From NCBI GenBank assembly GCA_947493255.1, contig CANLQK010000002.1, positions 434,001 through 498,000 of the forward strand: DNA of 64,000 nucleotides, written 5' to 3'. Position 1 is the stretch's first letter; each line of letters starts with the position of its first letter. Positions 27,909 through 50,563 of the stretch are shown here, piece after piece. The notes below the pieces were generated by a model. It made no database searches, had not been told where the DNA came from, and saw only the letters and a list, made by a program, of their open reading frames with translations. The position numbers and the translations under genes are program-made. The DNA is from an uncultured Paracoccaceae bacterium. Its GTDB lineage: Bacteria > Pseudomonadota > Alphaproteobacteria > Rhodobacterales > Rhodobacteraceae.

Positions 27909-27925
27909 TGGAGGCGAGTACCGGA
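27909..27925. repeat. Left attachment site (attL)
   Basis: Identical over 17 bases to 50490-50506, the 3' end of tRNA-Cys on the minus strand. The likeness continues imperfectly: CGGTGTACA at 27933-27941 matches 50514-50522 at the same offset. This is the trace of the tRNA T-arm left by integration. Confidence 0.88.
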
Positions 27926-36428: not shown

Positions 36429-36995
36429 TTACGTTAGGCTGTACTGTCCACGGCCTGTTTGAACCACACGACCGTCATCACACAATGCCCGCAGTGCGCG
36501 ATAGCAGGCTTCTTGACTGAGATTGATGCGGGTGGCCAACTCGGTCACCGTAGCATCGAAGTACCCTGCCTGAACCGCAGCCAAGATGCGGTCCTTGGCC
36601 GACGGGATTGCCAGCAACTCGATATGTGCGCGGTACAGTTGGACCTGAATTGCAAGCAACCTTGTGAAGCCTTCGGAGAACTCTAGATTGGATTGCAATG
36701 TGGCTTTGACATCTGCCTTTGCGATCTTCGTGACGCTCCCAGATTCAGTGCAAATCGCATCGCAATGGTAGGTCTCTGAGAAGACTGATGCCTCAGCAAA
36801 CAGCCCGCCCGACACCGCCCTATGAAGGGTCAAAGTGTCGCCTCCTAGCCCAGTGCGTTTCAGCGTCACGCACCCAGAGACGACACGGTAAAGGCCCGAT
36901 GTTGTCTGGTTCTGGCGAAACAGCACGTCACCTTTTTGCATGTCAATTGTGCGACACGCAGTCCTGGGTAGATGGGAGAAAGGATCAGAAGCCAT
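36429..36995 (-). CDS. Crp/Fnr family transcriptional regulator
   Basis: A 188-residue regulator. The cyclic-nucleotide-binding-like domain is QKGDVLFRQNQTTSGLYRVV, then GGLFAEASVFSETYHCDAIC near residue 63. The winged helix is TELATRINLSQEACYRALRA near residue 150. The Cys pattern does not give the four-Cys iron-sulfur cluster of Fnr. The ATG at 36995 follows MASDPFS; a longer frame to 37112 overlaps the divergent exported protein. The effector is not visible. It likely controls the neighbouring exported gene. Confidence 0.82.
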   Translation of the reverse strand: MASDPFSHLPRTACRTIDMQKGDVLFRQNQTTSGLYRVVSGCVTLKRTGLGGDTLTLHRAVSGGLFAEASVFSETYHCDAICTESGSVTKIAKADVKATLQSNLEFSEGFTRLLAIQVQLYRAHIELLAIPSAKDRILAAVQAGYFDATVTELATRINLSQEACYRALRALCDDGRVVQTGRGQYSLT

Positions 36996-37059
36996 ATGAT
37001 TGAGATCATAAGCGACCAGAGCGAAGTTGGATAGGGTTATCAAGAAATAGGAGGATTCA

Positions 37060-37581
37060 ATGAAGCTAGGACTTTTATCAGCAGCCATGATGTTCGTCGC
37101 ATCCAACGCCATGGCACAACATGCGCATACGTCGGGGTCACCAAACGAAACGGGTCAGTCACAGTTCGCAGCGATTGCTGAAATCGTGACATTGCTGCGT
37201 GACGACACAGACGCTGACTGGGCGCAGGTAGATATCAAAGCACTGCGTGATCACCTCGTGGATATGGACAACGTGACGACGAGGGCATCGGTTGAGCGAA
37301 AGGTCGATGAGTTGAGTGTGACGTTCACAGTCACGGGAGATGATGTGGTAGCATCGTCCATCAGACGCATGGTGTTGGCACATAGCCCGATGTTGCAGGG
37401 ATCATCGGATTGGACCGTCACCGCTGGAGAAATAGATAGTGGCGCATCGATGCTGGTTCAGGTCGAGTCAGATGAAGAGCTAAACCAAGTGCTGGGATTG
37501 GGATTCTTTGGATTGATGACAATCGGTGCGCATCACCAACAGCACCATCTCATGATCGCGACTGGGCGGTCGCCACACTAA
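37060..37581 (+). CDS. Exported protein with C-terminal His cluster
   Basis: A 173-residue protein I do not recognise well. The signal peptide is MKLGLLSAAMMFVASNAMAQ, with HAHTS near the mature N terminus. The body contains alternating helix and strand with ADWAQVDIKALRDHLVDMDN, and LAHSPMLQG. The C terminus has MTIGAHHQQHHLMIATG, a likely metal site. AATAGGAGG precedes the ATG closely. It is divergent from the Crp-type regulator and closes the metal-resistance part, so a periplasmic metal binder is a fair guess only. Confidence 0.72.
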   Translation: MKLGLLSAAMMFVASNAMAQHAHTSGSPNETGQSQFAAIAEIVTLLRDDTDADWAQVDIKALRDHLVDMDNVTTRASVERKVDELSVTFTVTGDDVVASSIRRMVLAHSPMLQGSSDWTVTAGEIDSGASMLVQVESDEELNQVLGLGFFGLMTIGAHHQQHHLMIATGRSPH

Positions 37582-38594: not shown

Positions 38595-38925
38595 GAAGGA
38601 TCGCATATTGCCTGCTAACACGAACGAACTGACCCCTAAGAACATTTTTATTACCTTGGCTTTCATCGCCATCGGGGGATACGTCGGGTACGCCACTGCG
38701 TTTCCTACTGATCGAAAACAGGTGCGGTCGTGCATCTCATCGATGCTGGAGTCATCGAGAGGGCAAGTTGGCTATGGTGAATTGCGCGACAAGCTTTCCG
38801 GCCTCGATGCCGCTGAAGTCGTCGAGGTTGTCAGTGAGCGTCGCCGTGACTTTGGTGGCAGTGAACTCGTGACTATCGAATATCTGATCGATGGACGGAC
38901 CAGCCGCGTTATGTGTGGGCAATAG
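38581..38925 (+). CDS. Small membrane-anchored hypothetical protein
   Basis: A 114-residue protein I do not recognise. One hydrophobic segment (NIFITLAFIAIGGYVGYATA, near residue 20) follows a basic N terminus, with a likely periplasmic rest that has two Cys (RSCISSML and the C-terminal VMCGQ). The ATG at 38581 (or 38575) overlaps the Cro-like gene by 14 bases, and the lipoprotein lyase-like gene starts seven bases after its stop. It appears to be the second gene of a four-gene unit starting at 38340. Confidence 0.6.
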   Translation: MKNSKKDRILPANTNELTPKNIFITLAFIAIGGYVGYATAFPTDRKQVRSCISSMLESSRGQVGYGELRDKLSGLDAAEVVEVVSERRRDFGGSELVTIEYLIDGRTSRVMCGQ

Positions 38926-38932
38926 GAATTTC

Positions 38933-39808
38933 ATGAAGCTCGTCAGTACACTCCTCATCTTGCTTGCTGTTTCGGCCTGTGTGTCCGCTTCAACCTCGGT
39001 TCAACGTAGCGCCGACGCACCGCTAGGCTACTACCGTGCACTCATGCCACATGAACATGGGTTTCGATATTCCGTTGAAGGAGAACCCGTTCGAGCCGGA
39101 CAAGTGAGTGAACGATATGAACTGCGTGATGGGGATTGCGGCGGGAGCGACTGTAGCAATCCAAGATACCGAAGTGAGGTGGGCATCCATCGCGAACATA
39201 CTCAGGCGAGAATTGGAGAAGACATTTGGTACGGCTGGTCGTTCTACAACCAGAACATCCAGTCTTACGCGCAAAACGTCAGCCTCATGAATGTCTTTGG
39301 TCAATGGAAAATGGGTGGTAGCAACCCACCCAACATCAAACTGGTCCAAATTGGACGTGGTGAAGCCTACCGAAACGGCAACCGCAGCCATGATGTCGTG
39401 ATCCAGCTTGACGATGCGAACGAAGGTCTTGGCTGGGGGGAAGCCCGCAACTGGGGAATCGTATGTCGTCTGTTCAGCATCGACGAGGCCCGTGGGCGTT
39501 GGACCGACATCGTGATCAACACCAACTTTAGCACGGGTGACGATGGATATCTTCGTGTCTGGATCAATGGACAGCAACGATGTGATTATTCTGGGCCAAT
39601 CACTGTTATCACCGACACGTCCTTGTATCCGGGTCCAAACTTCCGACGGGGCATATATGTCAGTTCCACACGCCGATGGGACCGTGTCCAACCCAACCAA
39701 CCGAAACCAACGATGATTACATTCTATGATGAGTTTCGCACCGGACGGTCACGCCAAGACGTAGATATTCGACTGATCGAACAACAAGGGGGCGTCGCAG
39801 TTGACTGA
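38933..39808 (+). CDS. Lipoprotein with heparin-lyase-I-like (polysaccharide lyase) fold
   Basis: A 291-residue lipoprotein. MKLVSTLLILLAVSACVSAS has a lipobox (LAVSAC). The rest looks like a jelly-roll polysaccharide lyase domain of the heparin lyase I type: SERYELRDGDCG, WYGWSFYNQNI, FGQWKMGG, IVCRLFSIDEARGRWTDIVI, and RRGIYVSSTRRWD. It may cleave an acidic polysaccharide in the periplasm or at the outer membrane. AGGAATTTC precedes the ATG at 38933. It is followed by another exported protein gene (39828). The fold call is from memory and should be tested. Confidence 0.62.
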   Translation: MKLVSTLLILLAVSACVSASTSVQRSADAPLGYYRALMPHEHGFRYSVEGEPVRAGQVSERYELRDGDCGGSDCSNPRYRSEVGIHREHTQARIGEDIWYGWSFYNQNIQSYAQNVSLMNVFGQWKMGGSNPPNIKLVQIGRGEAYRNGNRSHDVVIQLDDANEGLGWGEARNWGIVCRLFSIDEARGRWTDIVINTNFSTGDDGYLRVWINGQQRCDYSGPITVITDTSLYPGPNFRRGIYVSSTRRWDRVQPNQPKPTMITFYDEFRTGRSRQDVDIRLIEQQGGVAVD

Positions 39809-41391: not shown

Positions 41392-42372
41392 ATGATTTCA
41401 AAGACCATTCAAAGGAAGATTGCTTCAGGTCAGATCATACTTTACCGAAGAGTCAGCACACAAGCACAAGCAGGAACAGGCTATGCTGATCAACTTGATA
41501 CCGTGAAACTGTTCTATCCTGATTTCAGTATTGTTCAGTCTACAATCTATGATGTCAAAGAAGTTATGTCCGGCCTCAAAGACGCAGAAGTGCGAATGGC
41601 CTCAGGATTGGGTAAGGTACAGCGCCACTTAAAACGAAATCCTGGCGCAATTGTGCTGGTCTCAGACGCCAATCGGATTGCCCGTAGACCTGACGTATTT
41701 GAACTCATCAAAGCACAAGGTCTCGGACATCGCATCTTTGATGCATCGACAGGTATGTCAGTCAATGATGTCATCAAGAATGGGGCGCACATTGCTATAG
41801 CCAAACAAACCAAAGCACAGGAGAAGTCACGGCTGAAGGGGATGAAACGGTATATCCAGAATGGCGGAGAGATGGGCTACGATGGCATCTCTAGCCAATC
41901 GTCAAAGGGAACAGCCACCAAGAAACAATTGGCTTTAGAACGCGAGGAAGCGGTTCTTAACACCGTATCGCAGATGACGTTCCACAGCCGTGGGCAGGCT
42001 GTCGCTTATGCCGACATCTGTAATGAACTAGATCGCCGTGAGGTTCGCACAGGTCAAGGACGCCCCTTCAGTCCTGAACGGCTTGCACAGCTTCGCAAAA
42101 AGAACCCTGATAGATGGAAGCGTCCATGCGATAGCTACCACAGACCAAGGCGTCGCATCCGACATCTCGTAAAGAGAACACAACTTGAATACCGAATGAG
42201 ACGTAGGCGTCAGCTTAGAATGAAGCGACTACTCGATGCGACGACATATAAACTCATCTGGTCAAACCTAACCCAGCGAAGGGACTGGAGGATGCAAAAG
42301 CCGTGGCAGTGCTGGAACTACCATGCGTTCAGCACGAACAAGTATCTGCGCCGCAATGGTGTGCCGCCGTGA
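41392..42372 (+). CDS. Serine recombinase (resolvase/invertase type)
   Basis: A 326-residue protein. The N-terminal resolvase domain has ILYRRVSTQAQAGTGYADQL, in which the Ser of YRRVS is the catalytic nucleophile, and VSDANRIARRPDVFELIKAQ, the Arg-rich active-site helix. After about residue 150 comes a recombinase-like part (KGMKRYIQNGGEMGYDGISS) and then a strongly basic C terminus (RPRRRIRHLVKR). This is shorter than large serine integrases and longer than resolvases. It is likely an invertase- or transposon-related enzyme. Its role in this island is open. Confidence 0.75.
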   Translation: MISKTIQRKIASGQIILYRRVSTQAQAGTGYADQLDTVKLFYPDFSIVQSTIYDVKEVMSGLKDAEVRMASGLGKVQRHLKRNPGAIVLVSDANRIARRPDVFELIKAQGLGHRIFDASTGMSVNDVIKNGAHIAIAKQTKAQEKSRLKGMKRYIQNGGEMGYDGISSQSSKGTATKKQLALEREEAVLNTVSQMTFHSRGQAVAYADICNELDRREVRTGQGRPFSPERLAQLRKKNPDRWKRPCDSYHRPRRRIRHLVKRTQLEYRMRRRRQLRMKRLLDATTYKLIWSNLTQRRDWRMQKPWQCWNYHAFSTNKYLRRNGVPP

Positions 42373-43342: not shown

Positions 43343-43975
43343 TTGAAAACCATTCTCTACGCTCGTGTTTCCACAAGGGACCAGACACTCGAACATCAAA
43401 TCACCCAAGCAGAGGCAGCAGGTTTCAAGGTCGATGAAGTGATCGCTGATCATGGGGTGTCTGGGGTGCAGCAGAGACTGCAAGATAGGTCAGAGGGTCG
43501 CAGGCTTTTTGACAAACTCCGCTCAGGTGATGTGCTCGTGCTGCGTTGGTTGGATAGACTAGGACGTAACTACGAAGATGTAACCGATGCGGTTCGTCAC
43601 TTCATCCGACAAGGGGTCATCATCCGAACCGTCATCAATGGCATGACCTTTGACGGTTCCACCACCGATCCAGTTCAACAAGCAGTACGGGATGCAATGA
43701 TCGCGTTTCTGGCAGCAACCGCACAGGCGCAGGCTGAAGCAACTAAAGTTGCTCAGCAAGCTGGCATTCAACTTGCTAAGGAAAAAGGGGATCGGTTCCG
43801 TGGACGCAAACCTTCATATGATCGCGCTACGTTTGAGTTGGCGCAGAGTCTTTTGGGTCTTGGCAATGGTCCTAGTGCCGTATCCAAGCAAACGGGACTA
43901 TCACGCCAGACATTGATCCGTATTCGGGATGAACCAGAGATTGCCGCCGCCGCAATGGAGAGATGGGGGCTTTAA
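43343..43975 (+). CDS. Tn3-type resolvase/invertase (serine recombinase)
   Basis: A 210-residue resolvase. TILYARVSTRDQTLEHQITQ near residue 3 has the catalytic Ser. LRSGDVLVLRWLDRLGRN near residue 60 is the Arg-containing active-site strand. The long helix E (AFLAATAQAQAEATKVAQQ) and the C-terminal HTH (GNGPSAVSKQTGLSRQTLI) complete the fold. The TTG start at 43343 is supported by GGAGGCGAT just before it. Multiple CGGACA sites precede it. No transposase belongs to it in the window. Confidence 0.88.
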   Translation: MKTILYARVSTRDQTLEHQITQAEAAGFKVDEVIADHGVSGVQQRLQDRSEGRRLFDKLRSGDVLVLRWLDRLGRNYEDVTDAVRHFIRQGVIIRTVINGMTFDGSTTDPVQQAVRDAMIAFLAATAQAQAEATKVAQQAGIQLAKEKGDRFRGRKPSYDRATFELAQSLLGLGNGPSAVSKQTGLSRQTLIRIRDEPEIAAAAMERWGL

Positions 43976-44038: not shown

Positions 44039-44674
44039 TCAGATCGCTTTGTTTGTAAGCTTTGGATTGTAATTTTTACGACGCATTGGCAAAGACAGAT
44101 CATACTGATTAGTGCGACCTGCAGTTGCGGTTGCATCCACCAACCAACGCAAATTTTCTGGTTGGTTTTCAATGCGGGACCACGGCACAACTGACATCGA
44201 AACGTTCGGGTTCATAAGGTTATCTATAACTCGCTCTGGCATATCTGGATATCGTGACTGATAGTCAGACTTCTGCGACAAGCTCATCCATGATCCCCTG
44301 TAGTCAGGGTATATTACGGCCTTTTCGTCAGGAAGGCCGCAATGCCAACTTGTTGAAGGTGTTGATGGAAGATCAATTATCAATACACCTGATTTTTTGT
44401 TTACACGCCCGTCGATCATTGAGGATTTCAGTTCCCAATCAATGTGTTTGCGGAATCTAGTCTCGGTCCCACACAGCAAGATCGTTACTTCGGTGTCTCG
44501 CAGATAATCGTCCCTAATGATGCGACGAATGGATTCGCTGGGTAGATCATCATCGATGTCACCCACCTCGACAGAACCATCTTGGAAAGCGCCGTATATA
44601 CGACCGAGTCCAGCCAGATGTTCACGGTAGTACTGATCATTGTCATGATGATAGCTAACAAATACTTTCGTCAT
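44039..44674 (-). CDS. TIR-like (MTH538/ThsB-type) protein, distal gene of the five-gene operon
   Basis: A 211-residue soluble protein. It opens with TKVFVSYHHDNDQYYREHLA, the TIR-like strand and loop, followed by TEVTILLCGTETRFRKHIDW, and W80-E81 within KHIDWELKSSM at the place of the conserved W-x-x-E motif of ThsB-like TIRs. GVLIIDLPS and VIYPDYRGSW continue the fold, and a C-terminal helical part follows. Known ThsB proteins use NAD to make a signal molecule upon phage infection; that use here is an inference. GGAGAC precedes the ATG. It is transcribed as the last gene of the operon after a 70-base gap. Confidence 0.8.
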   Translation of the reverse strand: MTKVFVSYHHDNDQYYREHLAGLGRIYGAFQDGSVEVGDIDDDLPSESIRRIIRDDYLRDTEVTILLCGTETRFRKHIDWELKSSMIDGRVNKKSGVLIIDLPSTPSTSWHCGLPDEKAVIYPDYRGSWMSLSQKSDYQSRYPDMPERVIDNLMNPNVSMSVVPWSRIENQPENLRWLVDATATAGRTNQYDLSLPMRRKNYNPKLTNKAI

Positions 44675-44744
44675 TTTCGTCTCCTAAAGTCCAACCGCCA
44701 TCCAGCTATTCGCGACATCTTTCCGCCCCGAGTCAAATCGAGTG

Positions 44745-45425
44745 CTATTCATCGATTGCGATAATGCTCTCAGGGTCACCAGTTGCCAGTTGATACATCG
44801 CCCGTCGGTATTCGATCAGCTTTGCGTTGATCTCGAGAAGGTCTTTTACCAACTCGTCGTACTTCGGGAATTCCTGCTGAACGGACTGCGGGTCTCTAAC
44901 GGCATCATCGTTCAGCGTCGCTTCGTACCATCTTCGATAACGGGCTTGCCATTGGGTGAGGTGCGGTCGAAGTCCTTCATTCAACACCTGAACAGAAGCC
45001 CGCACAATCGCACGGGTTCCCTTGCTCTTGAGTTTGTGAGCGGGAACCTCTTTGATCAGGTCGCGGGTTACGCCGAAGAAGCTATACCAAGAGTCATAGA
45101 CCTCAGAGATCACATCGTGTTCGGGATCAATCGCCAGCCCAACCTTTCTTGTGCTTAGTTCCACCCAGATCGCATAGGCGATTTGTCGGTCGGTCCTGTT
45201 TGGTTTGAAACTGACATTGGTGTCACCAATGCCGATGCCTGCACTGTCGAGTTCAAAACTGCCCAAACCGATCCGACCACGAAAGCAAAGCCAAATCAGA
45301 AACGCCGCTGCAAGGAGCAACACCACAGGCGCAACCCATGCTCCAAGCTCGAGTGACATGCTTAAGTCCTCGGATATCGAGAAAGAGAAGAGCGGTTCAT
45401 TTGATTGAGAGGTTGGGTCAGTCAT
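44745..45425 (-). CDS. Single-pass membrane protein of the five-gene operon
   Basis: A 226-residue protein with one strongly hydrophobic segment (LGAWVAPVVLLLAAAFLIWL, near residue 27) and a mostly soluble, cytoplasmic C-terminal domain. That domain contains SFELDSAGIGIGDTNVSFKP and YAIWVELSTRKVGLAIDPEH, then helices (YDSWYSFFGVTRDLIKEV), and ends in ELVKDLLEINAKLIEYRRAM. I believe I have seen close relatives in other bacteria next to TIR genes but cannot name a family. It could be an effector that acts on the membrane. Its start overlaps the MazG-like stop as ATGA. Confidence 0.75.
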   Translation of the reverse strand: MTDPTSQSNEPLFSFSISEDLSMSLELGAWVAPVVLLLAAAFLIWLCFRGRIGLGSFELDSAGIGIGDTNVSFKPNRTDRQIAYAIWVELSTRKVGLAIDPEHDVISEVYDSWYSFFGVTRDLIKEVPAHKLKSKGTRAIVRASVQVLNEGLRPHLTQWQARYRRWYEATLNDDAVRDPQSVQQEFPKYDELVKDLLEINAKLIEYRRAMYQLATGDPESIIAIDE

Positions 45426-46552
45426 GTGTCGAGCTTCTTGAATTGCAGAGTTCGCGTGTCACGATCACCTATTATTAGACCTCCCTTGTTTCTGCGAACC
45501 TGACGAAACACCCCGTATCCGTCAAGGATACACTTCTCCCAAAGATTCATAGGGCATTGAGCAACCTCGTAACCCCGCACAAAGTCTTGGATATGTTTCA
45601 ACAGGTCCAAGGACACGCTAGTGTGGCCTTCGAAATAGTCGAGTTCCTTTGCTTTTGAGAACAACCAGGCGGCCAATCCCTCCTCAACGACAACACCACG
45701 GCCACCGTCTTGGCTCTCATCGATAAGTTGGTCACTCTTGCGTTTGCGCTTTAGCAACCCACGCATCGTGGGCGACCAATGCAGAATCGCAGCATGCGCA
45801 AAGTGGATCACGTCGTGGTAGCGAAAACCGTCACCTTCAGCGATATTGTCTGTCAGTGGGTCACCTATGAAGACACCGTTCCAACGCAGGTAAACCTTCC
45901 CGTTGTCACGTTCCCGCATCTCAATGGCGAATTGTCGAGGAAGCTGCTCATATTCAACGAAACCAGTATCAAAGTCAGGTTGTGATGACAAATCAAGCTT
46001 GCCAAAGCGCGATCTCGTCTTCTTGGCATTCGCAGTCAACACTTCGGAAAAACTGACGTTGCATTCACCCAGCACAGTCAGAAAATTTCGAACAAACGAC
46101 TTCATGACATCCAGTCGCTCATCATGGTTCATCGATTGGACCCGCAGCATGTCCGCACTGGTGCGTCCGATGTTGACCAATGCCTGATCACAAACCTCTT
46201 GTTTGGGGCCTATCTTGTTGGAGATGGTCACTGGGCAGAGCGGATCGTCAGACGCAATCACCGACTGGGTTTCATTGGGGGCTGACGTATTGAGTTCTAA
46301 CAGCAACTGAGCCACTGAAATATCGAACCGTCGAGCTAAAGCAGTGAAATACCAAAACGCATCGCCAAGTTCGTCGATGACATTTGCGCGGAAGCCGATG
46401 TATGCCTTCTTCTCCCGCTTCAACTTTTTGACTGCTGACATCACGCCACCCACTTCGCCGAAGAGACCAAGCAATATGGGTTGGGTCTCTCCCTCTTCGA
46501 AACGATCAGTTGCCTGCACTTCATCGCAATATGCGTTGATATCATAAGTCAT
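45422..46552 (-). CDS. MazG-like two-domain protein of the five-gene operon
   Basis: A 376-residue protein. Residues 20-100 are MazG-like (all-alpha NTP pyrophosphatase): GLFGEVGGVMSAVKK, then VIDELGDAFWYFTALARRFD. The second metal motif E61-x-x-D64 is complete, but in the first (E-x-x-E) only E33 remains. Residues about 215-360 are a second helical domain with YHDVIHFAHAAILHWSPTMR and a DGGRGVVVEEGLAAW segment, whose His, Asp and Glu residues would suit a metal or nucleotide site. The ATG at 46552 follows GGGGAGGCACAC and overlaps the Nmad2 stop. It could trim or destroy a nucleotide signal. Confidence 0.82.
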   Translation of the reverse strand: MTYDINAYCDEVQATDRFEEGETQPILLGLFGEVGGVMSAVKKLKREKKAYIGFRANVIDELGDAFWYFTALARRFDISVAQLLLELNTSAPNETQSVIASDDPLCPVTISNKIGPKQEVCDQALVNIGRTSADMLRVQSMNHDERLDVMKSFVRNFLTVLGECNVSFSEVLTANAKKTRSRFGKLDLSSQPDFDTGFVEYEQLPRQFAIEMRERDNGKVYLRWNGVFIGDPLTDNIAEGDGFRYHDVIHFAHAAILHWSPTMRGLLKRKRKSDQLIDESQDGGRGVVVEEGLAAWLFSKAKELDYFEGHTSVSLDLLKHIQDFVRGYEVAQCPMNLWEKCILDGYGVFRQVRRNKGGLIIGDRDTRTLQFKKLDT

Positions 46553-47175
46553 GTGTGCCTCCCCTCGATGGCATTGCCCCATGCCTCAGGAAGCCCTCTT
46601 AACCCCCAGTCGAACGACTCTAACAGCCAGTCTTTGATGGCCTGCTGCATCTCTGGGGAATAGCTTTTATATGTCCGAACGTCGCGAGGGAACGGTTCTC
46701 CAAGTCGACCGAATATGTGCTGTGGCGGAGTGACCGCGTCCGCACCAAAGTAGACGTATTGCCGTGCCAGCAACACGCGGTCGGCTTGGGTGTCTTGGCG
46801 AAGGTTGTCGGTATTAACTGAACCATCTCTCATACTGTGATGGGAGTTTGCTTGTCGAAACCCATCGGCACTCCCGTCACGCTGATAGATGTTATCGCCA
46901 AAGAACCCCTTATGAACCCCCTCAAGAACGGGTTTCTTCATCTGAAATCTGGGATCATTCCAATATTGATCGAACGTCATGATTTCATCGACAATCATCG
47001 CATAGACGACTTTGCCCCATAGCCCATTGGCTTTCGAACCTGCCCCAATTACCCAGTCACCGATATCGGCATGACCTCGTATCAACGGCTTGCAACACGC
47101 GAGAGTGCAGACTCCATGGAAAGGATTAGGGGCAAAACCGTAGTCACGAGCAACCTTGTAAGACCAGACAGTCAT
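46549..47175 (-). CDS. Nmad2-type (nucleotide modification associated) domain protein
   Basis: A 208-residue protein that matches the Nmad2 domain as I remember it: SYKVARDYGFAPNPFHGVCT near residue 5, LACCKPLIRGHADIGDWVIG, GKVVYAMIVDEIMTFDQYWN, then KKPVLEGVHKGFFGDNIYQR and ADSHHS-like HHSMRDGSVN. This domain is thought to take part in handling modified bases, by analogy with phage and bacterial modification clusters. It is rarely studied. The ATG at 47175 overlaps the TIR stop (ATGA). There is no DNA-modification enzyme nearby. Confidence 0.8.
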   Translation of the reverse strand: MTVWSYKVARDYGFAPNPFHGVCTLACCKPLIRGHADIGDWVIGAGSKANGLWGKVVYAMIVDEIMTFDQYWNDPRFQMKKPVLEGVHKGFFGDNIYQRDGSADGFRQANSHHSMRDGSVNTDNLRQDTQADRVLLARQYVYFGADAVTPPQHIFGRLGEPFPRDVRTYKSYSPEMQQAIKDWLLESFDWGLRGLPEAWGNAIEGRHT

Positions 47176-47645
47176 TGGCACTTTACCCTTTTGAACAAGA
47201 TGGGGTCGGAAACCGTCCCGTCCTGTTTTTCTCGACCGTTGAAGTCACCTGTCAGTGCATCAACAACGCGCCCACCGTCCCAGCCGACCATGGCGTCCGC
47301 TAACTGCTTCAACTTGGCAGGAGGTTCACATCCAGCATGTCCATGCGCCCACACCCCAACAATACGTTTACCCAAGCTGGCAGCCCGCAAAATTTCCTTA
47401 TCAACCCATCCACTATTTTTAGTCTGTGGCGTGATGTAGACGACCATGACGCTGCACCACTTGATGCGAGGGCCAATAATCTTGTTGAGAATGTAGTCGG
47501 CATTCTTAGCCTTGTTCGGCTTTTCTTTGTTAATGGATCCGTCTCGAACAGTGAGACCATGGTTGCGCGTCAATGTCTTCAGCTTTGCCAAGCCCGCATC
47601 ATCCTCATGAATGTGGCTGATAAAAATATTTTTGCTACCCTTCAT
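47172..47645 (-). CDS. TIR-like (MTH538/ThsB-type) protein, first gene of the five-gene operon
   Basis: A 157-residue protein with a TIR-like start, KNIFISHIHEDDAGLAKLKT, then IGPRIKWCSVMVVYITPQT and SGWVDKEILRAASLGKRIVG with W80 and E84 (W-V-D-K-E), the motif of ThsB-like TIRs. VVGWDGGRVVDALTG-like ends (MVGWDGGRVVDALTGDFNGR) complete it. It differs strongly from the TIR-like gene at the other end of the operon. The ATG at 47645 is chosen because GAAGGA lies 6 bases before it; ATG 47651 is also in frame. It probably cleaves or cyclises NAD or senses infection. Confidence 0.8.
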   Translation of the reverse strand: MKGSKNIFISHIHEDDAGLAKLKTLTRNHGLTVRDGSINKEKPNKAKNADYILNKIIGPRIKWCSVMVVYITPQTKNSGWVDKEILRAASLGKRIVGVWAHGHAGCEPPAKLKQLADAMVGWDGGRVVDALTGDFNGREKQDGTVSDPILFKRVKCQ

Positions 47646-47755
47646 AGTCATTCCTTCTCAATCACCAAGGTTTCGACGTCATTACAAAGCCAGCTTCTTT
47701 GGCGCATGTATCGCCGCAACCAGGTGGTGCGAGAGTGGGCAACTAAGAAGTATCG

Positions 47756-47844: not shown

Positions 47845-48168
47845 ATGACGACGCCCATGGGTGAGCGCATACGCGAACGGCGTAAGGCGAGGCAGTTAAC
47901 CCTCGACCAACTGGCTGACAAAGCAGAATGCAGCAAGAGTTACATCTGGGAGTTGGAGAATAAAACGCCACCTAGACCATCGGCCGACAAACTCGCTGCA
48001 ATCGCATCAGTGCTAGGAACTACAGTAGATGTATTGATAGGCACCCCCATCAACTCAACAGATGATTTGGCACCAGAGGATAAAGTTTTCTTTAGGAAGT
48101 TTAGCGGCTTAGATGCGGACAAACAGCAAACGATGCGGCGGATGCTAGACCTCTGGGATGATGAATGA
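47845..48168 (+). CDS. XRE family regulator
   Basis: A 107-residue HTH regulator: GERIRERRKARQLTLDQLAD, KAECSKSYIWELENKTPPRP, then LAAIASVLGTTVDVLIG, with a helical C terminus. Such proteins paired with an ImmA/IrrE protease are typical switches of integrating elements, cut when DNA damage or infection is sensed. GGGAGATTC precedes the ATG. It overlaps the protease gene (ATGA) and is divergent from the TIR operon, which it may repress. Confidence 0.88.
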   Translation: MTTPMGERIRERRKARQLTLDQLADKAECSKSYIWELENKTPPRPSADKLAAIASVLGTTVDVLIGTPINSTDDLAPEDKVFFRKFSGLDADKQQTMRRMLDLWDDE

Positions 48169-49049
48169 ACAAGCATAAGACCCCAGACCGCTGGGCCAAT
48201 GATCTGACATTGATGATGACGCAGGTACTGGGGCAAGATCGGTTCCCTGTGGATGTGGCAAAGTTAGCGACTGAGTACTCGCAGCAGGTCTTTCCTTCTG
48301 ACCCGATAACGAAGGTTGTTAGTCGCCCCTTCGATGGATTTGAGGGGGCGCTCATCCCTCGTGGGGGCGGTTCGAAAGAATGGGGGATTGGTTATTCATC
48401 TAGAATCAAGTCCACTGGTCGGGCCAATTTCACGCTGGCCCATGAGTTCGGGCACTACCTACTTCATCGTGAGAAGTACCCTGACGGGTTGCAGTGTACC
48501 CTGGAGCAGATGGGGCAATGGGATAGCGAATATAATCTTGTCGAGGCTGAGGCCAACAAGTTCGCGGCGGGCCTACTGATGCCTCTTGATGACTTTCGGG
48601 CCAATATCCCACCCAAGTCTAAGGCCGACTTTCAGCAGCTTGGCGAGTGTGCGGAACGGTATCAAGTGTCGCTAATGGCGGCTACACTTCGATGGCTGTC
48701 ATACACGCAGCAAAGGGCCATGTTGGTAGTATCTCGTGAGGGGTTTATTCTTTGGGCGAGATCAAGTGAACCAGCACTCAAGTCAGGTGCATACATAAAG
48801 GTATCGGGCCTCGCTCCAAAATCAGTTCCAATTGCATCGCCTATAGTCGTCCGTTCTGGGTGTGTGGGTCTAGCCGAGCAGGTTCAGCATGACAAAGGCG
48901 TCTGGCTCGGAGAAGCAGCAACCGAACATTCCTTGATATCGGAACGCCATGATATTGGGCTTTCATTACTGATCCTTGCAAGCAGCGGACCCTCTATTGG
49001 AGTGCTTGAAGAAACTGAACCCGATGTCGTGGATCGCCTGCGCTTCTGA
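48165..49049 (+). CDS. ImmA/IrrE family metallopeptidase
   Basis: A 294-residue protein with the zinc motif HEFGHYLLH (FTLAHEFGHYLLHREK, near residue 92) and a downstream Glu in NLVEAEANKFAAGLLMP, the third zinc ligand. The C-terminal third is a separate sensor-like part. In ICEBs1 and Deinococcus relatives cleave an XRE repressor on a signal. Here the repressor gene is directly upstream and overlaps by four bases. It probably de-represses the TIR operon, the integrase or both. Confidence 0.88.
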   Translation: MNKHKTPDRWANDLTLMMTQVLGQDRFPVDVAKLATEYSQQVFPSDPITKVVSRPFDGFEGALIPRGGGSKEWGIGYSSRIKSTGRANFTLAHEFGHYLLHREKYPDGLQCTLEQMGQWDSEYNLVEAEANKFAAGLLMPLDDFRANIPPKSKADFQQLGECAERYQVSLMAATLRWLSYTQQRAMLVVSREGFILWARSSEPALKSGAYIKVSGLAPKSVPIASPIVVRSGCVGLAEQVQHDKGVWLGEAATEHSLISERHDIGLSLLILASSGPSIGVLEETEPDVVDRLRF

Positions 49050-49076: not shown

Positions 49077-50420
49077 CTACCTCTTGACGAGGTTCAAGAA
49101 ACCAAGGTCGATCCTTTCAACCGCAATCGCTCTTGGGATCAGCAGCGGGCCAAAGCCATACTTTCCCGATGTATCTCTCGCCGAATGCCCTGTGATCTTA
49201 TCGTTTACCCGCTTCTCAACCATATTGTCTTTCATTGAACGCTCGATATCCGCCAGAGTGATTTCACCAGACTCGAGTTGGTGGACCATCTTAACGGTGA
49301 CACCTGCATTTTCAAGCATCTGCTTGAATGTGCCTCGTAAAGAGTGAACGACTTTACGTTCATGCTGTGTCACATTGCGAACATAAGGCATCAGTTGCTT
49401 GCTTGCGGCATTCTGAGCTTTGCCATCTGCATCCAGCTTGTAGTCGAAAATCCGTCCCGTTCCGCCCGAAAGTAAACACTCTGCTTTGGAGTGGATCGGT
49501 ACCACACGATGCGATCCGTCCGTTTTGACTTTGGTCTCATCTGGCCGCAGATCAATATACATCAGCCCAGCGAAGTCTGTTTTCACCTGCTCCCAAGTCA
49601 GAAGGGCAATCTCGTCCAGTCGGGCACCCGTGATGGCCAGAAGCGTCAAACACAGTCGATCTTGAGGCTCCATGTCTTGAGCAAACAGATCGTTTAATTC
49701 ATCTGGATCAAATGGCAGGTACGGTAGGGATTCCTGGCCGAAGTCTGCAAGCTTCAGGTTGGCCAATGGGTTGTCCTCAATATGACCTTCCCGTTCGCAC
49801 CAGTTCAGAAACGCTACGACTTTGGTGTTCAACGAACGAATGGTTTTGTTGGCTCGGCCCTGCTTATGGCTCCACTTTGCATATTGGTAGCCATGGACTT
49901 TGGTGATGTCCTTTACATGCAGGTCGCCGACGACTTTGACGAACTCGTTCAGCTTATTGCGTCGCGAGGTGCGTTCCTTGTGGTTGCTCTTGTTTCTTTC
50001 TTCCATGTCCTCGATCCACTTTGGCAAAAGCCTTGTGATCTTGAGGGCAGGGTCCTTATCTAGGCCGTGCTTCTGGATGAGCAGTGGGTTGGTAGTGAAG
50101 ACCTTTGAGAAGTCGCCAATCGTTGACGTGTACGCGGCCTCTTCAGTGTCGGCGACGTACTGGCCATGCAAACCAGTAAGCTTCCGATCAAATTCTGCAT
50201 AGATTTCGTTGGCCAAAGCAACGAGCTTGGTTTTGGCGATCTTTTCGTCCGTTGTACCTGTCGAACGCATCATCTGCTTCTGAGAACCTTTCCTCAGGGC
50301 GTCAGGCATCGTCACGCAAACGTAGTATTTGCCGCCTTTTGCTGAAAGCGGCACGAGGGTCGGGGGGTGATAATCGGGTCGATTTACCAGCCCGATATAG
50401 TCCAAGTTACAGTCCATCAT
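49077..50420 (-). CDS. Tyrosine-type site-specific integrase
   Basis: A 447-residue phage-type integrase. An N-terminal core-binding domain spans about residues 110-215. The catalytic domain has Arg in ITGARLDEIALLTWEQVK, His-x-x-Arg in VVHSLRGTFKQML, a His/Trp-site GHSARDTSGKYGFG and the nucleophile Tyr in the last of these. It stands 73 bases from the 3' end of tRNA-Cys, where its attachment site is found. It would integrate and excise the island of 27909-50506. The start is ATG 50420 or the next codon. Confidence 0.9.
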   Translation of the reverse strand: MMDCNLDYIGLVNRPDYHPPTLVPLSAKGGKYYVCVTMPDALRKGSQKQMMRSTGTTDEKIAKTKLVALANEIYAEFDRKLTGLHGQYVADTEEAAYTSTIGDFSKVFTTNPLLIQKHGLDKDPALKITRLLPKWIEDMEERNKSNHKERTSRRNKLNEFVKVVGDLHVKDITKVHGYQYAKWSHKQGRANKTIRSLNTKVVAFLNWCEREGHIEDNPLANLKLADFGQESLPYLPFDPDELNDLFAQDMEPQDRLCLTLLAITGARLDEIALLTWEQVKTDFAGLMYIDLRPDETKVKTDGSHRVVPIHSKAECLLSGGTGRIFDYKLDADGKAQNAASKQLMPYVRNVTQHERKVVHSLRGTFKQMLENAGVTVKMVHQLESGEITLADIERSMKDNMVEKRVNDKITGHSARDTSGKYGFGPLLIPRAIAVERIDLGFLNLVKR

Positions 50421-50489: not shown

Positions 50490-50506
50490 TGGAGGCGAGT
50501 ACCGGA
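50490..50506. repeat. Right attachment site (attR) in tRNA-Cys
   Basis: TGGAGGCGAGTACCGGA, identical to 27909-27925. Read on the minus strand this is the acceptor stem, discriminator base and encoded CCA of tRNA-Cys, so integration left the tRNA whole on this side. Confidence 0.88.
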
Positions 50507-50563
50507 ATCGAACCGGTGTACACGGATTTGCAATCCGCTGCGTCACCACTCCGCCAACTCGCC
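50493..50563 (-). tRNA. tRNA-Cys (anticodon GCA)
   Basis: The minus strand folds as a 71-nt cloverleaf starting GGCGAGT and ending ACTCGCC with discriminator T, followed by an encoded CCA at 50490-50492. The anticodon loop ATTGCAA gives anticodon GCA and the T-loop is GGTTCGATTCC. It is intact and serves as integration site of the island. Confidence 0.95.

Follow-up and report, generated by a model that had tools for sequence, protein, structure and literature searches.

Described relatives of the five-gene operon

Thoeris (ThsA/ThsB) combines a ThsB-type TIR carrying a conserved glutamate with a ThsA effector of the SIR2-SLOG or Macro type, and Thoeris type III combines a TIR with a small partner (ThcA, NF058525; ThcB4, NF058526). 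SLOG-TIR nucleotide-centric systems have reportedly been set out by Burroughs et al. in 2015, and CapH/CapP regulators accompany the cyclic oligonucleotide-based antiphage signaling system (CBASS) and other immune operons. Here, we describe an operon of five minus-strand genes (44039-47645) in a stretch of 64,000 nucleotides, hereafter the window, from an uncultured marine Paracoccaceae bacterium (GenBank assembly GCA_947493255.1, contig CANLQK010000002.1, positions 434,001 to 498,000). In the order of transcription, the genes encode a TIR protein (TIR1), Nmad2, a MazG-like protein with a MazG_C domain (MazG-MazG_C), a membrane protein with one transmembrane (TM) helix and a soluble domain that we call X (TM-X), and a second TIR protein (TIR2). 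We read the operon as a new variant among TIR signaling systems, and sequence comparison shows its first two genes, TIR1 and Nmad2, to be a conserved two-gene core.

All five open reading frames were confirmed in the window. Direct reading of the sequence placed ATGA junctions at 47172-47175, 46549-46552 and 45422-45425 and a 70-base gap (44675-44744) between TM-X and TIR2, so that the packing described in the first-pass annotation stands; the TIR, Nmad2, MazG-like and TM parts named there were recovered by Pfam matches and, for the TM part, by hydropathy and a structural model. Two other roseobacters (L016 and L026) preserve the five-gene order with 75-89% protein identity, TIR2 being in the same place with 82-84% identity, and in a third, L017, genes one to four are preserved and the contig ends ~300 bases beyond them. 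When L016 and L026 were compared with the window, nonsynonymous divergence (dN) was 0.07-0.17 across the operon genes; synonymous divergence (dS) was saturated and not computable in seven of ten comparisons and was 2.8-4.1 in the other three. Low dN combined with saturated or near-saturated dS points to strong purifying selection on each gene. Among the genomes of 101 relatives, the TM protein was found in one, the bacterium's own. Judged by its sequence, the cluster is a real, conserved operon of immune type, and the idea that it forms one functional unit is supported by the co-occurrence of related genes elsewhere and by the order kept in L016 and L026.

Like Thoeris, the operon contains a ThsB-type TIR. 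TIR1 matched PF08937 (ThsB_TIR) at 2.1e-18, the PADLOC ThsB model PDLC00418 at 9.5e-54 and, weakly, the solved ThsB1 structure 9b7d (E 0.0015), and Glu84 is present in 74 of 75 aligned TIR1 rows, the window included. TIR1 is thus a predicted NAD+-using signal enzyme and the conserved partner of Nmad2, and a signal-then-effector logic would be expected. The operon differs from Thoeris in that it has two TIRs and adds Nmad2, MazG_C and TM-X; as noticed at the outset, none of its five genes matched a ThsA effector of either type in Pfam, PADLOC or NCBIfam. Thoeris type III is similar in having a TIR with a small partner. We considered ThcA as a relative of TM-X and rejected it, since the ThcA homologues retrieved with NF058525 look, by eye, SLOG-like and unlike X; TM-X did not match this model up to E 1, and the model had no match in the own genome, while five of 249 genomes passed its cut-off. 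SLOG-TIR systems resemble the class in that SLOG cluster2 proteins, some of them TIR-fused, are present near Nmad2 in 32 of 80 related loci, and differ from the window's operon, which has X and no SLOG.

The partner genes of this class overlap with the systems of DefensePredictor (PMC13092281, Science 2026), in which 5-hydroxymethyluracil kinase and thymidylate synthase (TS) defence genes were validated in E. coli. The accessible parts of that paper place TS, dNMPk, 5hmdUk and NMAD in one figure legend, list predicted defence systems with MazG, MazG-C, dUTPase, uracil-DNA glycosylase (UDG) and NMAD domains, and credit several of these domains to predictions of Burroughs 2015 (ref 59). The word "TIR" is absent from its main text, and a TIR-Nmad2 pairing, the X domain and an exchange of X for SLOG are not described in those parts; in the accessible part of a survey of EVE/DCD domains (PMC7641849), "Nmad" does not occur and "TIR" occurs only within "tiRNA". 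The class is thus, as far as these partial texts go, partly known and partly validated in print. The first-pass claim of an undescribed system has to be narrowed accordingly: TIR1 is recognised by PADLOC and the partner domains are covered by PMC13092281, while for Nmad2, MazG-MazG_C, X and the kinase the members scanned matched no PADLOC 2023 or NCBIfam 2026 model beyond chance level. The TIR-Nmad2 core, the X domain, X-patatin fusions and the X/SLOG exchange were not found in the literature searched, which did not include Burroughs 2015 and Iyer 2013, nor was a phage test of this operon found.

The TIR-Nmad2 pair and its companions

A scan of a collection of genomes from 84,980 species yielded 386 Nmad2 relatives, of which the best 80 loci, selected for likeness to the Nmad2 of the window and spread over many bacterial phyla, were kept. 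These loci hold 81 Nmad2 genes. The upstream neighbour could be called for 79 of them and is, in 74 cases, a directly adjoining TIR gene on the same strand. Since PF08937 is scarce in the relatives of our bacterium (23 matches in 101 whole genomes, the own included, two of them TIR1 and TIR2, which are its only two such genes at E 1e-5), this adjacency is not due to chance. The first-pass annotation had named a lack of co-occurrence elsewhere as grounds for giving up its proposal; co-occurrence was found. The exceptions are L031, L038, L040, L077 and one of the two genes in L090. In three of them a protein of 149-178 amino acids precedes Nmad2 (L031:3970-4506, L038:4468-4917, L077:7534-7986); the one member scanned weakly matched nucleoside 2-deoxyribosyltransferase (E 0.0063), and nucleoside deoxyribosyltransferase is given as a sister fold of TIR in the accessible part of PMC9503650.

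Because PADLOC calls TIR1 ThsB, one may ask whether TIR1 and TIR2 are simply the ThsB proteins of an ordinary Thoeris, with ThsA encoded elsewhere or unrecognised and with Nmad2 and MazG as passengers. We regard this as very improbable, given that Nmad2 adjoins TIR1 so regularly and in many bacterial groups. Models of the ThsA STALD and ThsA_Macro domains (PF18185 and PF20016) also had no match in the own genome, in a search that likewise gave none in the control genomes.

The Pfam Nmad2 model matched six of 398 genomes of the phylum, and besides the own genome one of the other five is TIR-linked (L108). In the remaining four, Nmad2 has as neighbour a beta-propeller gene (L109), a transposase (L110), Nmad3 (L111) or a ParA-like gene (L112). 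It follows that linkage to TIR is a property of a single large Nmad2 branch and does not extend to the whole family. In L111 (5343-6191), the non-TIR Nmad2 adjoins Nmad3 (1.1e-82), which suggests a different role for that branch.

Within 5 kb of Nmad2, TIR was present in 74 of the 80 loci, MazG in 53, the 5-hydroxymethyldeoxyuridine (5-hmdU) DNA kinase helical domain (HMUDK) in 41, SLOG cluster2 (SLOG2, alone or with TIR) in 32, X in 29, UDG in 24, TS in 19, thymidylate kinase (TMK) in 12, a dCTP deaminase-like protein (DCD) in nine and SLOG cluster3 (SLOG3) in five; patatin was a further partner. These family names rest on Pfam scans of single representatives. The TIR, Nmad2, MazG and UDG models were built in two iterations on full-length hits and could over-call fused proteins, and each of the other partner models was built from a single seed in one trimmed round. 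On the downstream side, Nmad2 is followed directly by MazG in 35 of 81 cases. Genes of nucleotide metabolism lie within 5 kb of Nmad2 in 72 loci out of the 80. They encode MazG-MazG_C, in some cases together with a UDG-like protein, or a 5-hmdU-kinase-like protein accompanied by relatives of TS, dTMP kinase or dCTP deaminase; X or SLOG was present in 61 loci. Comparison therefore shows, at the level of sequence families, that the core is usually accompanied by pyrimidine deoxynucleotide enzymes and by an X or SLOG protein. The window has the same arrangement, with TIR directly upstream of Nmad2 and with MazG-MazG_C and X nearby.

UDG and HMUDK were never found together (Fisher p 1.5e-10, kinship ignored), and X was found together with SLOG2 in four loci (Fisher p 3e-4, kinship ignored). 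In the 47 loci that extend 5 kb in each direction, UDG (15) and HMUDK (25) again did not coincide, and X (19) and SLOG2 (22) coincided in two. On a tree of the 81 Nmad2 proteins the receptor label (X or SLOG) changes at least 11 times, five changes being forced by strong branches; 11 changes are fewer than in shuffles (mean 18.9), so that the label is clustered and has yet moved repeatedly. The nucleotide label changes eight times on the best tree. The number of independent pairs on this tree is too small to reach significance.

Two mutually exclusive enzyme sets could give chemically related products, and this, together with the alternation of X and SLOG in most loci, fits a scheme in which the nucleotide module makes part of the signal: a modified pyrimidine nucleotide produced by MazG (or by TS, kinases and deaminase) would be joined by the TIR to NAD+-derived ADP-ribose, giving a hybrid messenger for X or SLOG, with Nmad2 helping in the choice of base. 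TIRs do transfer ADP-ribose to other acceptors in type II Thoeris. We nevertheless consider the scheme unlikely, since MazG enzymes normally break nucleotides down and eight of the 80 loci have no nucleotide gene within 5 kb.

The same enzymes can be placed in a guard or decoy arrangement, in which MazG- or TS-type enzymes maintain a modified nucleotide, the Nmad2-bound form of which would hold the TIR off until phage enzymes that remodel the pyrimidine pool removed this nucleotide and released the TIR. Phages remodel the dUTP/dTTP node, and the attached TS, dTMP kinase, dCTP deaminase and UDG act around it. Nucleotide decoys have been described for Panoptes (in the accessible part of PMC12657218). 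The direction of control, on which this arrangement depends, is not readable from sequence, and we hold the guard to be improbable, to the same degree as a signal-making module.

No E. coli homologue of the TS/kinase set was found by DNA similarity, a search with one 3.4-kb query that says little. Some TIR-Nmad2 modules are embedded among type I restriction genes or adjoin them, as judged from single representatives: HsdM, HsdS and Schlafen genes were found in L041:3322-16588 and HsdR in L035:2430-8000, and sequence clusters indicate such adjacency also in L027, L023, L034, L061, L055 and L029. On a Mesorhizobium plasmid (L004:900-9300), two divergent TIR-Nmad2 pairs lie side by side, one with MazG-UDG and an adjoining dTMP-kinase-like gene and the other with X-patatin.

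Nmad2, MazG-MazG_C and TM-X in a proposed mechanism

In structural comparison, the predicted fold of Nmad2 resembled those of the McrB N-terminal domain, THYN1, ASCH and YTH, and several of the matching structures contain modified DNA or RNA. From this modelled fold, Nmad2 is predicted to recognise a modified base or nucleotide in the manner of YTH/ASCH proteins. These folds would also suit a protein that, like McrB, EVE or YTH, detects base modifications in the DNA or RNA of phages and recruits or activates the TIR, with MazG and UDG removing modified nucleotides from the pool. The five genes include no nuclease, however, and the retention of TS/kinase sets with the pair would be left unexplained; we rate this reader of nucleic acids slightly below the two nucleotide schemes given above.

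A phage base-modification pathway was also considered. At E 0.01, none of 50,697 phage records matched Nmad2 or X, which argues against such a pathway, and it was rejected. Two points count against the rejection: PHROG 229 reveals distant phage relatives of MazG-MazG_C, and the phrase "nucleotide modification associated domain" occurs in the accessible parts of the phage literature, with the type of Nmad unspecified. In the same phage records the MazG-like protein matched a single phage, present in two records, through its residues 26-88.

The MazG domain itself scored below the Pfam threshold (E 0.0077, 16.9 bits against a cut-off of 22), and PHROG 229 (MazG-like pyrophosphatase) was matched at 3.6e-31 over residues 26-370. 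In a 39-row family alignment E33 and D64 are invariant and E61 is present in at least 90% of rows. The position of the second glutamate in what we take to be the usual layout of the first MazG motif is mostly S, and G in the window, and this substitution makes the activity uncertain. MazG-MazG_C is predicted from sequence to be a nucleotide-processing enzyme with a divergent MazG site. A relationship of MazG_C to the helical domain of the 5-hmdU kinase was tried and rejected, the profile comparison being negative (E 0.12 over 12 columns).

TM-X contains an N-terminal TM helix at residues ~31-51, predicted by hydropathy and by AlphaFold (pLDDT 81, 22 sequences), followed by the helical bundle of X. 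Among the relatives listed in a comparison with the Protein Data Bank, X resembled only generic helical bundles, and no family in Pfam, PADLOC, NCBIfam or PHROGs was matched by TM-X above chance. A search with TM-X alone reached 30 proteins, patatin-like ones not among them. An earlier X model made from full-length proteins picked up the patatin part and was replaced by an X-only model, for which the soluble portions of six small X proteins were used and which is the source of the X counts given here. This X-only profile found X at the N-terminus of proteins of 837-889 amino acids in seven of the 80 loci and on the Mesorhizobium plasmid (E 4e-13 to 7e-6), having been built without them; both of the eight that were scanned with Pfam (L004, L079) matched patatin. 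A patatin-like protein in L064 was missed by the model. X is also C-terminal in a protein of 544 amino acids (L033) and is found in small proteins. Among 37 X proteins (without the window duplicate), a strong hydrophobic segment at the N-terminus is present in 18 and absent from ten; the other nine are long.

Away from Nmad2, X was found in four other genomes among the 398. In two of these it lies beside SLOG2 genes, and in the other two neither SLOG2 nor TIR was seen in the stretch retrieved. A Lactiplantibacillus plasmid (L008) carries X with two TIRs. On an Aureispira plasmid (L002:1382-6543), TM-X was found with four annotated TIR genes, one of them a TIR-SLOG2 fusion by Pfam, and with a deoxyribosyltransferase-like gene, near cas1/cas6.

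Since one domain is found on different killers and mostly alternates with SLOG, we infer from these sequences that X may be the messenger receptor of an effector. The first-pass annotation had assigned the one-helix membrane protein as the effector. On the same two grounds, the presence of the soluble domain on patatin-like proteins as well and its exchange for SLOG in most loci, a combined role as receptor and effector is the better reading.

Taken together, the TIR upstream of Nmad2, the nucleotide genes, X or SLOG, the conserved Glu84 and the predicted YTH/ASCH-like fold, at the frequencies given above, lead us to read the operon as TIR-Nmad2 signaling. Specifically, it may be an anti-phage system of the abortive-infection type built on the TIR-Nmad2 pair, with an Nmad2-gated TIR, a TIR-made messenger and an X-TM effector, a proposal that we consider evenly poised between right and wrong. 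Nmad2 would bind a modified pyrimidine nucleotide or base, the level of which would be set by MazG-MazG_C and would shift during phage infection. Ligand-bound Nmad2 would switch the TIR on, and one or both TIRs would convert NAD+ into an ADP-ribose-derived messenger. The messenger would be bound by the soluble X domain of TM-X, a role that SLOG would have in loci without X, and the TM helix would then assemble into a membrane-damaging effector, with a phospholipase in its place in X-patatin loci. The best reading is thus Thoeris-like TIR signaling in which the TIR is gated by a modified-nucleotide reader and acts through a membrane effector; by gene content, the operon is not Thoeris. More tentatively, and with the balance somewhat against it, the operon may represent another class of TIR immunity: a modified pyrimidine nucleotide, purpose-made or monitored, would be read by YTH-like Nmad2 and control or join the TIR messenger, X replacing SLOG and being plugged onto different killers (a membrane helix or a patatin lipase). 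The alternatives discussed above are partly variants of one step, the direction of gating, in which the nucleotide is activator, guard or substrate; their probabilities overlap and do not sum to one.

If correct, TIR-Nmad2 signaling would link TIR immunity, so far explained mainly by NAD+ chemistry, with a predicted reader of modified bases and with enzymes devoted to unusual pyrimidine nucleotides, and X would be a new candidate receptor domain. It bears on what activates bacterial TIRs and on the role of orphan "nucleotide modification" genes in defence islands, and makes both testable.

Regulators, integration site and other genes of the island

The setting in an integrase-tRNA island, proposed earlier, was borne out, and the adjoining XRE/ImmA switch proved to be a CapH/CapP-like pair (Table 1). 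As in CBASS and other immune operons, a divergent helix-turn-helix (HTH) regulator and a peptidase stand beside an operon of immune type. The differences are that the window proteins scanned with Pfam contain no CD-NTase match and that no capP match was found beside the sister operons of L016 and L026, where it was looked for. Proteins of 108-118 amino acids encoded directly upstream of these two operons, and divergent from them, cluster loosely with the capH of the window. By an analogy that we assume to hold here, CapH/CapP would repress the operon and release it upon DNA damage or infection.

Table 1. Coordinates of the operon and of the surrounding island in the window
Feature	Position	Strand	Evidence or remark
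TIR1	47172-47645	-	ThsB-type TIR; additional in-frame ATG at 47651
Nmad2	46549-47175	-	Nmad2 PF18753 4.5e-62
MazG-like + MazG_C protein	45422-46552	-	MazG_C PF18722 1.5e-76
TM-X	44745-45425	-	no family over cut-off in Pfam, PADLOC, NCBIfam, PHROGs
TIR2	44039-44674	-	second ThsB-type TIR, PF08937 3.1e-16
CapH-like HTH regulator, divergent from operon	47845-48168	+	PADLOC capH 2.7e-30
CapP-like ImmA/IrrE-type peptidase	48165-49049	+	PADLOC capP 3.3e-64; Peptidase_M78 1.1e-15
Phage-type (tyrosine) integrase of island	49077-50420	-	PF00589 2.8e-6, PF13102 6.5e-6
tRNA-Cys, probable integration site	50490-50563	-	ARAGORN; repeated 17-base stretch at 50490-50506
Distal 17-base copy of tRNA-Cys end, probable attachment site	27909-27925	+	exact repeat

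The exact distal copy of the tRNA-Cys end suggests that the mobile element probably spans 27909-50506. In three of nine loci of relatives, the sequence immediately ahead of the tRNA match is 91-93% identical to 28-35 bases at this copy. No empty site was defined; in the relative checked for it (G003), the left-flank gene does not adjoin the tRNA. Partial copies of tRNA-Cys were seen in at least five congeneric species, each on the contig of the main match and kilobases away from it, and the site thus seems to have been used repeatedly in the genus. Genes for a polysaccharide lyase, for a regulator that has a cyclic-nucleotide-binding domain and for two proteins of the resolvase family are also present in the island (38891-39808, 36429-37112, 41392-42372 and 43343-43975).

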